Shown here: positions 55,146 through 60,179 of the stretch, one piece after another | Numbering within the stretch: the stretch's first letter is position 1 | Layout: each line of letters opens with the position of its first letter | From: Pandoraea faecigallinarum | GTDB lineage: Bacteria > Pseudomonadota > Gammaproteobacteria > Burkholderiales > Burkholderiaceae | Length of the DNA: 64,000 bases | Direction: 5' to 3' | Assembly (NCBI RefSeq): GCF_001029105.3 | Contig: NZ_CP011807.3 | Coordinates: 434,001 to 498,000 of the forward strand | Translations under genes and position numbers: made by a program | The notes under the pieces: generated by a model | What the model saw: only the letters and a program-made list of their open reading frames with translations | What the model was told of the DNA's origin: nothing | Database searches by the model: none

Positions 55146-55169
55146 TTGGACGTCTGGAAAGCCCCCATC

Positions 55170-56177
55170 ATGACCACCGTGACTCAGAACGACAGCACGA
55201 ACAAGGAAGTTCGCACGATCGACGGCGAATACGACGCCACCGCGAAGCAGAAGTCGCAAGCCAAAACGGCGCGCATCCCGATCAAGGTCGTGCCGATCGA
55301 GCGTTTGAAGAAGCCGGACTGGATTCGCGTGAAGGCGGCCACTCATACGTCCCGCTTCTACGAAATCAAGCAGATTCTGCGCGAGCACAACCTGCATACC
55401 GTGTGCGAGGAAGCGAGCTGCCCGAACATTGGGGAGTGCTTCGGCAAGGGCACGGCAACGTTCATGATCATGGGCGACAAGTGCACGCGCCGCTGCCCGT
55501 TCTGCGACGTCGGCCACGGTCGTCCCGACCCGCTCGACGTGGACGAGCCGCTCAACCTCGCCAAGACCATCGCCGCGATGCGTCTGAAATATGTGGTGAT
55601 CACCAGCGTCGACCGCGACGATCTGCGCGATGGCGGCGCCCAGCATTTCGTCGATTGCATCCGTCACGTGCGCGAGCTCTCGCCGCAAACCCGCATCGAG
55701 ATCCTGACGCCGGACTTCCGTGCGCGTCTTGACCGCGCGCTGGGTATTCTCAATGCCGCGCCGCCCGATGTCATGAACCACAACCTGGAAACGGTGCCGC
55801 GTCTGTACAAGGAAGCGCGCCCGGGGTCGGACTACCAGCACTCGTTGAACCTGCTCAAGGAATTCAAGGCCGCACACCCCGACGTGTCGACGAAGTCCGG
55901 TCTGATGGTCGGACTGGGTGAAACGGATGAAGAAATTCTCGAAGTGATGCGCGACATGCGTGCGCACAACGTCGACATGCTCACGATCGGTCAGTATCTG
56001 CAACCGTCGGAACACCACCTGCCGGTGCGCCGCTATGTCACGCCGGACACGTTCAAGATGTTCGAGGAAGAAGCCTACAAGATGGGCTTCACCCACGCGG
56101 CGGTCGGTGCGATGGTGCGATCGAGCTACCACGCCGACGTGCAGGCGCACGAGGCCGGCGTGGCGGATGCTATCTGA
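55170..56177 (+). CDS. lipA: Lipoyl synthase LipA
   Basis: 335 residues, radical SAM enzyme. Auxiliary cluster Cys in [12 protein letters not shown] (near 80-92), radical-SAM Cys triad CTRRCPFC (near 107-114), and C-terminal RSSYHAD. Inserts two sulfurs into octanoyl groups. A 3' segment starting at 55992 has been duplicated at 57173, on the far side of the first paralogue. Confidence 0.96.
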
Positions 56178-56204: not shown

Positions 56205-56966
56205 TTACATGGCGTCGGCGTCAAGCTTGCGGACGTCGGCCTTCGTGAAATCGCGCGTTTCCCCGTTCCAGGTTCGCAGGTCAAGATAAGTCAGGCCGGC
56301 GGGCAGGCGTCCGAAGTCGGGATGATCGACGTAAGCGCCGCTTCCGTTCGTGTAAAGCAGCGTTTCCTTGCCCGGCGCCGAAAGGCCAACGCCCTGATGC
56401 ATCAAGATGTACTGGCGACTGTGGACTGCGTTTATCAGGTCCTGCAGATCGGTGTCTGCGACCTTCGGGACAAATGCCCAGGACGGTTTGATTTCCGGCT
56501 GGCGTGACCGAATGACCGCATTAAAGGGGATCATCTCCATGTACGGTCCCAAGTCGACGAAATACAGGCTCAACCAGATGGAGTTGATGAAGTATTCCAG
56601 CAAATCCGGGTCGTTGAGCATCCTGTCGACATTAATGCCCAGCACATCGATGTACAGGCGCTCGTAGACGAAGGTCAACCTGTAATTGTTGGGATCGACG
56701 ATGTAATCCGGGTGCGCAGCCAGCACTTTTTTGGCGGTGGCGATGATCTTGTCGAGGCTGGCGGCCAGCATCGTCGTCTCTACGATCGCTTGCGGGGTAT
56801 CGATTGTCGAAGGAACGCAGCGGATCGAGCCGGCTGTGAATTGCGCAGCGAGCATCGGCTCGTTAATCAGTTTTGCGTTTCGACGTTCGCTTGTTCGGCC
56901 GTCGCGACCCTTGCGAAGCCAGTCGAGGGTCACGCTGGCTTCCGCCAGCAGTTGTTCCTTACTCAT
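56205..56966 (-). CDS. Unrecognised paralogue A, quorum-type promoter
   Basis: 253 residues, no family recognised. No signal peptide or membrane segment; mixed composition, with segments NYRLTFVYERLYIDVLGINVDRML, SRQYILMHQGVGLSAPG, YVDHPDFGRLPAGLTYLDLR and WNGETRDFTKADVRK. Shares these with paralogue B, most strongly in the last 30 residues. Convergent to lipA with 27 bp between the stops. Start at 56966 with GGGAG seven bases upstream; a further ATG at 56990 is less likely. GC is lower than in neighbouring genes. A lux-type dyad and promoter lie 52-97 bp upstream of the start. Confidence 0.8.
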   Translation of the reverse strand: MSKEQLLAEASVTLDWLRKGRDGRTSERRNAKLINEPMLAAQFTAGSIRCVPSTIDTPQAIVETTMLAASLDKIIATAKKVLAAHPDYIVDPNNYRLTFVYERLYIDVLGINVDRMLNDPDLLEYFINSIWLSLYFVDLGPYMEMIPFNAVIRSRQPEIKPSWAFVPKVADTDLQDLINAVHSRQYILMHQGVGLSAPGKETLLYTNGSGAYVDHPDFGRLPAGLTYLDLRTWNGETRDFTKADVRKLDADAM

Positions 56967-57017
56967 GGCGTTTCTCCCAGTTGGCAGCACACCGGTCGGT
57001 GCACACGATCCGGGTCC

Positions 57018-57063
57018 AATCTATGTGGAGGACGTTGCCCCGGACAACTGTCAACGTTGACAG
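57018..57063 (-). promoter_or_regulatory. Promoter A with lux-box-like dyad
   Basis: Minus strand: perfect 16-bp palindrome CTGTCAACGTTGACAG (57048-57063), then directly -35 TTGTCC (57042-57047), 18-bp spacer, -10 TAGATT (57018-57023). CT-N12-AG with dyad symmetry centred near -44 is how LuxR-type activators bind. The same layout precedes paralogue B. Confidence 0.7.
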
Positions 57064-57172
57064 GACGCAATCGCGATAGTCAGTAAAGTCGAACCCGCCA
57101 CGTTGCCCCCGGGCTTAGCGCACATCTCCTCCGAAATATGTTGTGACAGGCGTCACCTCGCCGGCGTTGTTT

Positions 57173-57263
57173 CAGTACCGGCAACCGTCGGAGCACCATC
57201 TGCCGGTGCGCCGCTACGTGACGCCGGTTACGTGAAAGATGTTCGAGGAGGAGGCCCCTCTGA
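57173..57263 (+). pseudogene. lipA: Duplicated 3' fragment of lipA
   Basis: Reads [18 protein letters not shown], matching lip[19 protein letters not shown], then a stop codon replaces the Phe codon of TFKMFEEEA (VT-stop-KMFEEEA). About 95 bp of the lipA end are deleted before a TGAGTCTTGTCGCTCGC that matches the sequence after the true lipA stop. No start; a relic of the tandem duplication. Confidence 0.85.
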
Positions 57264-57290
57264 GTCTTGTCGCTCGCCTCGTGCGCGGCG

Positions 57291-58022
57291 TTACATGGCG
57301 TCAACCTTGCGGACGTCGGCCTTCGTGAAATCGCGCGTTTCGCCATTCCAGCTTCGCAGGTCGACGTAGGTCAGGCCTCCGGGAATATGTCCGAATTCCG
57401 GGTGATTGATGTAATAGTCTCCCCCCGAGGTGTGGAGCTTCATCTTCAGGCCGGGGGCCATGACCCCGATCGCCTGATGCATCAGGATATATTGACGTGA
57501 CCGGACTGCCTCGATCATGTCCTGTTCGCTCGCGCCTTCTTGCACCTGCATGAATGACCAATGCGGTGTGGCCTCGTTGTCGAATGTCTCCAGAATGGCT
57601 TTGGTGGACGCCATCTGGTAGTAATAACCAAGGCCAACGCGATATTCATTCCACAAGAAGTTGATATTGTCCAGGAAAGCGCCCGGTGAGGAGAACATCT
57701 GATCGAGATTCACTCCATTGACCGGCAGCCCCATGCGCTCGTAGACGAACGTCATGAAGAAGTCCGGATGGTTCGCATAATCCGGATATTGCTCGCGAAG
57801 CGACTGCGCGACAGCAATGGTTTTCTCCGCGCGAGCCACCAACATTTCCATGCGGACGTCTGCGAATATCAGATCGTTAGGTGTCCGACGCGTGCTGATG
57901 GCCCCGTCGATGAACGAACCTGCGAGCCGGGGGTCGTTGATCAATTCGGCTTCGTCATCCTCTTTTTCGCCGCTTTCGTGGCGAAGCCAGTACTTCGTCG
58001 TTACCGCTTCTCTGCCGTTCAT
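57291..58022 (-). CDS. Unrecognised paralogue B, quorum-type promoter
   Basis: 243 residues, paralogue of A. Shared landmarks: TFVYERMGLPVNGVNLDQMF, SRQYILMHQAIGVMAPGLK, YYINHPEFGHIPGGLTYVDLR and WNGETRDFTKADVRK. The N-terminal half is much more diverged than the C-terminal third. Start at 58022 with GGGAG nine bases upstream. In 57601-57720 only 57 of 120 bases are G or C, far below the neighbours. No signal peptide or membrane helix. Function unknown. Confidence 0.8.
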   Translation of the reverse strand: MNGREAVTTKYWLRHESGEKEDDEAELINDPRLAGSFIDGAISTRRTPNDLIFADVRMEMLVARAEKTIAVAQSLREQYPDYANHPDFFMTFVYERMGLPVNGVNLDQMFSSPGAFLDNINFLWNEYRVGLGYYYQMASTKAILETFDNEATPHWSFMQVQEGASEQDMIEAVRSRQYILMHQAIGVMAPGLKMKLHTSGGDYYINHPEFGHIPGGLTYVDLRSWNGETRDFTKADVRKVDAM

Positions 58023-58506
58023 TGCGCGTTCTCCCGGACTCCCGCACACCGACGAGTGCGCGCGGACGAGAGTCCAATTTAGGCAGAGGGCGGTGCCCGG
58101 ACAACTGTATACGTTGACAGGGGCAGCGCGGCGCAACGGTCGACCAGTCCGGCGCGGGGCAGTCCGGGCAGCCGTGACGTGTCGGAGCGAAGGCGGCGGT
58201 ACTTCAACCATCGTTTACATCGCATCACACGACGTGCCCGGTTCGATAGCCGATACGCTTCGCAGACATCGGCAGATGTCGATCTACGCGTTCGATAGCA
58301 CCGCCATCTGCACCGAACATCGTCGAATCGGCGACGTCCGCCCGCAGCCTGGCGGCGTTCGTCTCCGAAATATGTTGTAACACGCGTCACCTTGCTGCGT
58401 TTCCGGCGTTGTTTCAGAATATTCGAACTTTGTTTTGCGTGGCAAAACAATGCGCCCGGCATGGTTATTCCCGGGTGGATGTTCCGGATGCAAGCCAGGA
58501 GCCAGC
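58023..58506. other. 484-bp divergent intergenic region, paralogue B to amidohydrolase
   Basis: Holds promoter B, then ~180 bp not present in unit 1, including the inverted repeat GACATC-GGCA-GATGTC (58265-58280), the conserved unit end at ~58356-58414, and from 58415 the leader of the N-formylglutamate amidohydrolase gene. No credible gene. Confidence 0.6.
58076..58120 (-). promoter_or_regulatory. Promoter B with lux-box-like dyad
   Basis: Minus strand: CTGTCAACGTATACAG (58105-58120, CT-N12-AG, partial dyad), directly followed by -35 TTGTCC (58099-58104), 17-bp spacer and -10 TAAATT (58076-58081), then ATTGGAC as in promoter A. Leader of ~47 bases as in A. Confidence 0.7.
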
Positions 58507-59400
58507 ATGTCCCGTCAGGTCACCGAGGGCCGATTCTATGTGGAAGCACCGTATGGCGGCACCAGTGGCCGCAGCGGGCGCTTGCCTCTGGTCCTCGACG
58601 CGCCTCGCAGCGGCCACGTCCTTCCCCCGGATTTCGACACCATCGCCTCCACGGCGGCGATCCTCGCCTGCGGCGACGTGCGCGTCGACGAACTGTGGTC
58701 GGTGGCCACGCGTCACGGCGCAACACTGGTCGCCGCCCTTTTTCCGTGCGCCTACATCGATCCCGATCGCGCCGAGTCGGACATCGATCCCGAGTTGCTC
58801 GCCAGCCTGTGGCCGCACGACGCGCGCCCGCAGGCGTTCAGCGAGCGTGGTGTGGGCCTGCTGCACCGGTTCGCCGCACCCAATGTGCCGCTCTATGACC
58901 GTCGTCTGACGGTGCCTGAAGTGGAGCGCCGTATCCATGACTACTACCGCCCGTATCGCCATGTGCTGCGCGACGCAATCGAGGCCGCGTGGCAGCGTCA
59001 CGGTGTGGTCTGGCATCTCGACTGCCATTCGATGCGCCCGCGTGGTGGCGCGCTCGACCCCGACGCGGGCATGACGCGCCCGGATGTCCTCGTGAGCGAC
59101 GGCGACGGCACCACGGCCGAACCCGCGTTCTCGCGCTGGGTGATCGCGGAATTCACGCGTCTGGGTTTTCGCGCCGCTTACAACGCGCCCGGTCGCTGCG
59201 GCGATCTCGTGCGTCACTTCGGGCGCCCGTCCGAAGGACGTCACAGCGTGCAGATCGAGTTGAACGAGGCGCTGTACCTGAATGAATCGAGCGGCGAAAA
59301 GCACGTGCGGCATGACGGTTTTTCGACGCTGCAATCGCAACTTGGCCAATTTGCGGCGGCGCTCGCCGCGTATGCCGAACAACATAGCGAGGAAGTTTGA
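58507..59400 (+). CDS. N-formylglutamate amidohydrolase family protein
   Basis: 297 residues. FYVEAPYGGTSGRSGRLPLVLDAPRSG, metal/catalytic segment HLDCHSMRPRG (near 170-180), and RHSVQIELNEALYLNE at the C-terminal end match the FGase (HutG-type) family that releases formate or another acyl group from N-acyl-glutamate-like substrates. Start at 58507, supported by AGGAG; ATG 58435 is unlikely. Its stop overlaps the IclR start (TGATG). The rest of the histidine pathway is absent, so another N-acyl substrate supplied by the transporter downstream is likely. Confidence 0.87.
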   Translation: MSRQVTEGRFYVEAPYGGTSGRSGRLPLVLDAPRSGHVLPPDFDTIASTAAILACGDVRVDELWSVATRHGATLVAALFPCAYIDPDRAESDIDPELLASLWPHDARPQAFSERGVGLLHRFAAPNVPLYDRRLTVPEVERRIHDYYRPYRHVLRDAIEAAWQRHGVVWHLDCHSMRPRGGALDPDAGMTRPDVLVSDGDGTTAEPAFSRWVIAEFTRLGFRAAYNAPGRCGDLVRHFGRPSEGRHSVQIELNEALYLNESSGEKHVRHDGFSTLQSQLGQFAAALAAYAEQHSEEV

Positions 59401-60179
59401 TGGACTACACAGTCGCTTCGGTCGACACGGCGCTTTCGCTGTTGTCGCTGGTCGGGGAATGCCCCGGCCTGGGTGTGACGGAACTGGCGCAGCGCGCTGG
59501 CTTAAACAAGTCGCGGGCGTTTCGTCTGCTGGCGACGCTCGAACAGCACCGCTGGGTGGTCCGTGAGGGCAGCCCGGTCACGTACGTACTCGGCGCGCAG
59601 GCGCTGGTGCTGGGCGTGGCGGGGCATGAGCAGGTCAACCTCGTGAAAGTCGCGCACCGCCATCTCCAGTCGCTCAATCGTGCACTTAACGAGAACATCC
59701 AGCTTCGTGTGCGCGACGGTCTCGAATCGCTGTGCGTCGCGCGTGTGGAATCCACGCACGAACTGCGCGTGCATGGTGTCGTGGGCAACCGCCGCCCGTT
59801 GTACGTGGGCGCGTCGGGCCGTGTGCTGCTGGCCTTCGCCTCCGACGACGTACGCGCCCAGGTGCTTGGCCGCCCGCGCAAGCGCTTCACGGCGGGCACG
59901 CTCATCGAGCGTGACGAACTGGCCGCCGAACTGCTGAACGTGCGCCGTCAGGATTGCGCGGTGAGCTTCGGGGAACTCGCGCCGGAAGCCGTCTCGGTCG
60001 CCGTGCCGGTGCGCGACGCGTCGGGCGAGGTGACCGCATCGCTGTCGGCGTCGGGCCCGTCTTCGCGCATGACGCGCGCCCTGCTGCCCGATATTTCGTC
60101 GCGGCTGTCGGCGTGCGCCGCGGAAATCTCCGCCGCGCTCGGTTATCAGGCGCCCGTGCCGGAAACGCTGTCGGCCTGA
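59400..60179 (+). CDS. IclR-family regulator of the transporter cluster
   Basis: 259 residues. Winged helix in VASVDTALSLLSLVGECPGLGVTELAQRAGLNKSRAFRLLATLEQHRWV; GAF-type effector domain with GNRRPLYVGASGRVLLAF and LAPEAVSVAVPVRDASGEV. ATG overlaps the amidohydrolase stop, GAGGAAG upstream. Likely controls the transporter 310 bp downstream; TGGAAAACCA-type boxes are present there. Confidence 0.9.
   Translation: MDYTVASVDTALSLLSLVGECPGLGVTELAQRAGLNKSRAFRLLATLEQHRWVVREGSPVTYVLGAQALVLGVAGHEQVNLVKVAHRHLQSLNRALNENIQLRVRDGLESLCVARVESTHELRVHGVVGNRRPLYVGASGRVLLAFASDDVRAQVLGRPRKRFTAGTLIERDELAAELLNVRRQDCAVSFGELAPEAVSVAVPVRDASGEVTASLSASGPSSRMTRALLPDISSRLSACAAEISAALGYQAPVPETLSA

Follow-up and report, generated by a model that had tools for sequence, protein, structure and literature searches.

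Members of the genus Pandoraea infect cystic fibrosis patients as opportunistic pathogens, and a LuxI/LuxR quorum-sensing system is already known in the genus (PMC6691176). This earlier study describes a lux box ahead of luxI, a LuxR1 protein that clusters with CepR and SolR, and the detection of both quorum-sensing activity and C8-HSL in P. pnomenusa (PMC6691176). In the literature that we searched we found no description of the target genes of the Pandoraea LuxI/LuxR system or of the protein family treated here; the portion of PMC6691176 consulted gives no list of targets, and that of PMC4556143 makes no mention of a box, an upstream region or a promoter. Here we analyze two neighboring genes, A and B, that lie in a window of 64,000 nucleotides of the Pandoraea faecigallinarum genome (Table 1). 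Sequence comparison makes it very probable that these genes belong to a Pandoraea-only family that is switched on by acyl-homoserine-lactone (AHL) quorum sensing via LuxR1; because A and B carry what appears to be the quorum-sensing switch of the genus, they are probably turned on in crowded cells. The original prediction, which saw a lux-box-type dyad in front of each gene, is thereby supported in silico: the genome has luxI and luxR, the dyad is kept in relatives, and the box tracks luxI in 32 genomes.

Table 1 Features of the A/B locus (positions in the window) and the luxI/luxR1 pair of the same genome (positions in locus L018 and in the genome, G000).
Feature	Position	Strand	Remarks
lipA, left neighbor of A/B	55146..56177	+	Radical_SAM, LIAS_N
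Gene A	56205..56966	-	253 aa; member of a Pandoraea-only family, without known domain
Proposed -10 of A	57018..57023	-	TAGATT, 18 bp beyond TTGTCC; from sequence
Proposed -35 of A	57042..57047	-	TTGTCC, abuts box; from sequence
Predicted lux box of A	57048..57063	.	CTGTCAACGTTGACAG, perfect 16-bp palindrome
Copy of DNA before the FGase gene	57129..57175	.	Copy of 58363-58417; right edge of repeat unit 1
lipA 3'-end remnant	57172..57256	+	86% to 55991-56075; mark of the tandem repeat
Gene B	57291..58022	-	243 aa; paralogue of A
Proposed -10 of B	58076..58081	-	TAAATT, 17 bp beyond TTGTCC; from sequence
Proposed -35 of B	58099..58104	-	TTGTCC, abuts box; from sequence
Predicted lux box of B	58105..58120	.	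CTGTCAACGTATACAG on the - strand, 2 mismatches to the A box
FGase (N-formylglutamate amidohydrolase) gene, right neighbor	58507..59400	+	PF05013
luxI	L018:6885-7631 = G000:C1:3690884-3691630	-	
luxR1	L018:6045-6821		

Both genes are real open reading frames at exactly the positions originally predicted, and they are indeed paralogous, their proteins being 45% identical across 242 columns of a protein alignment. Neither had been placed in a family from the sequence alone, and profile searches agreed, with no Pfam or NCBIfam family matching A or B even at E ≤ 10. When seven family members were compared with Pfam, NCBIfam, PHROGs, and PADLOC (E ≤ 0.1), nothing was returned but one nameless PHROG, at 0.059 and for one member. 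All seven members that we found are from Pandoraea, no relative outside the genus was found, and a family-profile search placed genes of this family in 5 of 32 Pandoraea genomes; the seventh member (P0007) is a database entry only, and the promoter comparisons below cover the other six genes. PCA31118_04336 of P. captiosa (35% identical to A) and PAQ31011_03626 of P. aquatica (32% identical to A) are members of the same family, annotated in their sources just as hypothetical proteins. Values of dN/dS between members were 0.22–0.44 in the 12 computable pairs out of 15 (the other 3 were saturated), which suggests that these proteins are real, constrained, and fast-evolving, without detectable positive selection overall. 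Across the seven members 32 columns are invariant, most of which (25) fall within the C-terminal half; the invariant residues of A include R184, Y186, Q191, H215, D229, and E236.

The two promoters have the layout that had been predicted, with a perfect palindrome at A, TTGTCC directly after each dyad, and TAGATT or TAAATT at a spacing of 18 or 17 bp. They carry an inverted repeat of 18–20 bp of the CT-N12-AG type, as in class II lux-box promoters, and the sequence layout places the box so that it abuts or overlaps the proposed -35 in A, B, luxI, and four homologues; the hexamers beside the box in the homologues and in luxI are poor -35s. Likeness also extends beyond the 16 bp, as 63 sites with ≤2 mismatches from seven genomes have flanking bases in common (A or C, then A, mirrored). 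Within the window, the true box has two sites at ≤2 mismatches, whereas none of 40 composition-matched shuffled palindromes had any. Genome-wide, the perfect dyad has six copies, and the degenerate form CTGTNNACGTNNACAG has seven sites vs. 0 for a reversed control. At ≤3 mismatches the genome-wide excess was weak (33 vs. 14 per strand), and we therefore placed our reliance on close matches. A separate sequence, TTGTCAACGGTGACGG, is present in nine identical copies (G000:C1:1560271, seven places on C2, and C3:71437), mostly on the two smaller replicons, and is probably part of a repeated element.

Although neither luxI nor luxR lies in the window, as had been noted, a profile search of the genome identified both elsewhere: a luxR gene (PF03472 and GerE) and a luxI gene (PF00765) form a convergent pair, as in the luxI/luxR1 (ppnI/ppnR1) system of Pandoraea. 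The LuxI match is low-scoring, at 39.6 bits over 12–86 of 183. Its promoter reads CTGTTAACCTTGACAG-TTTTCG-17 bp-TAATCT, a box with two mismatches in the same layout as in A and B. Two perfect dyads are located at distances of about 5 kb and 15 kb from luxI, one of them (L018:12429-12444, G000:C1:3696428) between divergent genes of large repeat-type proteins and the other 203 bp ahead of a gene for a pertactin-type autotransporter. An arrangement similar to that of the divergent genes recurs in G014, G024, G031, and G021 (L105, L113, L127, and L134). Another PF03472 gene (G000:C2:267555-267926) is found on the 387-kb replicon, with a three-mismatch dyad 2 kb away.

Of 32 Pandoraea genomes surveyed, 17 have the dyad at ≤1 mismatch, with 1–13 copies each, and the other 15 have none; the reversed control dyad gave 0 in all 32 genomes at the same threshold. 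LuxI-type matches occur in exactly the 17 genomes that have the dyad, in a count that leaves out an acetyltransferase common to 31 of the 32 genomes and Pfam-checked in our own genome only. A genome-wide dyad search coupled to a check for luxI/luxR, which had been proposed as a test of the lux-box reading, thus returned the box only where luxI is present (17/17 vs. 0/15). There are 5.7e8 ways of choosing 17 genomes from 32, but relatedness among these genomes has to be considered. A quick tree, built from the FGase gene alone with 30 of the 32 genomes, requires four changes for the joint state of box and luxI, with both traits always together, and the well-supported branches force four as well; the 17/17 match therefore rests on about four independent changes, and a sign test on four independent pairs gives a p of 0.125, in a setting where so few pairs cannot reach 0.05. 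An untidy case among the 17 genomes is G017, in which a luxI match and a single dyad are found but no PF03472 match, of two in total, adjoins luxI. In G030, two perfect boxes are found only 62 bp apart (G030:C10:46482 and 46544).

One may postulate that the palindrome is the operator of some other regulator, whether TetR, GntR, or the IclR-type protein encoded at 59397-60179, and that it resembles a lux box by chance. A dyad of the form TGTCAA-CG-TTGACA is plausible for other regulator families as well, and the IclR gene is 1.3 kb from the box; nevertheless, we regard this scenario as very improbable, given that the presence of the box tracks luxI in 32/32 genomes, that the luxI promoter has a box with two mismatches, and that boxes lie ahead of homologues at unrelated places with different neighbors. 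The luxI-independent occurrence expected of a TetR, GntR, or IclR operator was not seen, which largely refutes it, and the TetR or GntR alternative raised in the original prediction does not explain why the dyad is confined to exactly the 17 luxI genomes. A second scenario, in which the box is bound not by LuxR1 but by a LuxR solo (LuxR2 or LuxR3), appears only slightly less improbable. This genome does encode further PF03472 proteins that may bind similar sites; PF03472 genes are found in 31 of 32 genomes, however, including 14 of the 15 that lack luxI and have no box at ≤1 mismatch, suggesting that the box follows LuxI/LuxR1 and not the LuxR solos.

Regulation through LuxR1 is also consistent with the DNA ahead of A-family genes elsewhere. 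All six genes with readable DNA, from five genomes, have a box with 0–3 mismatches located 75–89 bp before the ATG (mismatches, box-to-ATG distance, and -10-spaced hexamer: A 0, 81 bp, TAGATT; B 2, 82 bp, TAAATT; G005 2, 75 bp, TAGATT; G015 3, 88 bp, TATGCT; G021 2, 79 bp, TAGAGT; G001 1, 89 bp, TAGAGT). The dyad is thus conserved in relatives, as the lux-box reading had anticipated, with one to three mismatches ahead of homologues in four other species, although four of the six boxes carry two or three mismatches and the box of B shares its repeat with A. By-eye identification of neighbors places the genes at three unrelated sites, next to lipA (G000 and G005), next to an apparent LysR gene (G021 and G001), and at a third site in G015 (P. 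terrae). At the last of these an unclassified 418-aa ORF (L028:8452-9708) directly adjoins the A-family gene. We compared 27 lipA–FGase loci, of which 25 intervals were delimited (the exceptions being G031 and G015). The 24 intervals without an A-family gene span 368–493 bp, and their best dyad has 5–8 mismatches, amounting to no box; the G005 interval has one A-family gene in 1230 bp, and our own interval is about 2.33 kb. The box is found with the gene and neither is found in the gene-less intervals, which suggests that gene and box come and go together. The family is patchily spread, with five state changes for the five of 32 genomes that have it, and all five fall among the 17 box/luxI genomes, for which the chance is 0.03 if relatedness is ignored.

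Within the window, A and B are part of a tandem repeat, the unit of which includes the gene with its promoter, DNA from before FGase, and an 85-bp remnant of the lipA 3' end, beyond which there is a gap of about 97 bp. The likeness of the two promoters to each other is consequently due in part to shared descent, and independent evidence for the box comes from other genomes. Uncorrected synonymous differences between A and B were 0.55–0.73 in six windows of the gene and 0.17 in the last 18 codons, and the flanks, including the lipA fragment, are closer to each other than the gene bodies are. The gene bodies of A and B therefore look older than the repeat, and from these sequence differences we infer recombination, either by tandem insertion of a foreign allele whose ends were similar or by replacement of the middle part of one copy with such an allele; alternatively, the ends may have undergone conversion. 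A simple recent tandem duplication with later divergence seems an unlikely origin for the pair. The repeat does carry a lipA remnant, as a duplication of this kind would, but the synonymous difference of the gene bodies is far from the 0.17 of the last codons and the 14% of the lipA remnant, and recombination with a foreign allele, or end conversion, provides a better fit. The earlier description of a duplicated gene holds in that A and B are paralogues in a tandem repeat, but they are better viewed as two divergent alleles with younger flanks.

Other genes linked to the box were collected from 40 stretches around dyads in five further genomes (G014, G024, G001, G031, and G021), together with our own sites and the homologue loci; the stretches were drawn among the dyads listed, and G010, G027, and G030 make up the rest of the eight other listed genomes. 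We counted 64 sites with ≤2 mismatches in these stretches (three were allowed in one locus). ORFs were picked if they started 30–139 bp after the dyad and had a GC3 above 0.68, which yielded 55 ORFs and left 20 of the 64 sites without a pick, including those of the G015 family member and our own autotransporter. A cluster of 15 picked ORFs encodes large repeat-type proteins of up to 1484 aa; their Ig-like character is based on a single Big_2 match below the cut-off (22.2 vs. 22.8 bits), and two other scanned members had no Pfam match. A further cluster of 11 (9 distinct) contains a lipoprotein-like protein and longer relatives, and presumably corresponds to halovibrin-like proteins. Among these picks is a 323-aa lipoprotein-like gene (L020:5127-6098) located 80 bp after a perfect box, for which there was no Pfam or NCBIfam match. 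The smaller clusters comprise the A family (5), luxI (4), proteins of about 330 aa (3), delta-60 repeats (3), VRP1 (2), and one more pair, and ten ORFs were picked singly, some of them probably spurious. One of the two VRP1 members was scanned and has Big_1 as well; in our genome, L022:1-4674 (G000:C1 near 2356785) encodes a VRP1 + Big_1 protein whose length is 1558 aa or more and whose start lies 111 bp after a perfect box. The proteins of about 330 aa form a second family behind lux boxes, in three other genomes (L115:916-1929, L121, and L137), and the one scanned member had no Pfam or NCBIfam match. Two box-linked autotransporter genes were confirmed by Pfam, and a visible Sec signal is wanting in several of the box-linked proteins. 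Metabolic genes also neighbor boxes, namely a thiolase gene at L130 and, next to the box of L022, a gene for an enoyl-CoA hydratase, indicating that not every neighbor fits a secreted set.

Structure prediction, which had been suggested along with the original prediction, yielded two confident AlphaFold2 models, yet neither had a usable match among solved structures. The model of A had a pLDDT of 81.8 and a pTM of 0.79, with low confidence in residues 1–27, and that of the P. captiosa homologue was the better of the two, with a pLDDT of 89.9 and a pTM of 0.85; the predicted fold is a compact alpha/beta protein. Foldseek returned nothing at E ≤ 1e-3 for both models against PDB or for the model of A against BFVD, and structure comparisons of the models gave VIA-align Z values below 5. 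Inspection by eye revealed no Sec signal in A or B.

As to the products, the explanation that we tentatively favor is that A and B encode soluble and fast-evolving proteins with exchanged alleles, effector-like or accessory in role, that belong to a "social" set and would be released or delivered without a Sec signal. The sole grounds for this guess are that the box-linked set is partly surface- or toxin-like and that several of its proteins lack a visible Sec signal; counting against it are the lack of a partner gene, the lack of a fold match, and the metabolic nature of some box-linked ORFs. Alternatively, A and B may be self-protection (immunity-type) proteins against a co-regulated protein, with two alleles for breadth. 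Several features would agree with this, including the lack of a signal peptide by eye, the patchy spread across 5 of 32 genomes, the adjacency of two divergent alleles, and a promoter type in common with autotransporter and VRP1-type genes. We nonetheless consider it doubtful: by-eye inspection of ORF lists showed no evident toxin gene beside the family genes (with the 418-aa neighbor in G015 unclassified), and the many conserved Y, R, H, D, E, and Q residues are as enzyme-like as they are inhibitor-like. Those conserved polar residues, together with the compact alpha/beta model, could instead indicate a cytoplasmic enzyme of a quorum-controlled metabolite, which we find somewhat less likely still, given that these are single genes with no evident pathway neighbors and no fold match.

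Returning to regulation by LuxR1, at high density LuxI would make an AHL (C8-HSL by analogy), and LuxR1 with AHL would bind CTGTCAACGTTGACAG as a dimer just ahead of the -35 hexamer and recruit polymerase from a class II position. A and B would then be transcribed along with luxI and the other box-linked genes, the co-regulated set potentially including the pertactin-type autotransporter, the large repeat proteins, the lipoprotein-like protein, and the VRP1-type protein. LuxR1 binding, activation, and the AHL signal at the A and B promoters are all steps that we infer from promoter layout and genome comparison. The box as defined here provides a short, testable list of targets (1–13 sites per genome at ≤1 mismatch, across 17 genomes), and the A family is a clear example of an orphan gene whose apparent link to quorum sensing is already in place at several genomic sites. 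More speculatively, and with less assurance than the effector-like guess, the family may represent a new fold and a density-dependent social trait unique to Pandoraea, with gene and lux box having spread together as one self-contained cassette and alleles having been exchanged at conserved ends, all within a quorum regulon that spans the genus and includes many proteins of surface or secreted type.

The A family is new, in that neither relatives beyond Pandoraea nor a fold match were found here, and its promoters are, judged by sequence, new members of a known promoter type. They are similar to the CepR-type cep box promoters of Burkholderia cenocepacia in having a CT-N12-AG inverted repeat near the -35, and by our count CTGTCAACGTTGACAGTT is equal to the cep box CTGTAAAAGTTACCAGTT (PMC1766932) at 14 of 18 positions. 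Unlike the cep boxes in the table of that study, however, the Pandoraea box is a near-perfect palindrome with a CG center, and it looks far more uniform between targets (PMC1766932).
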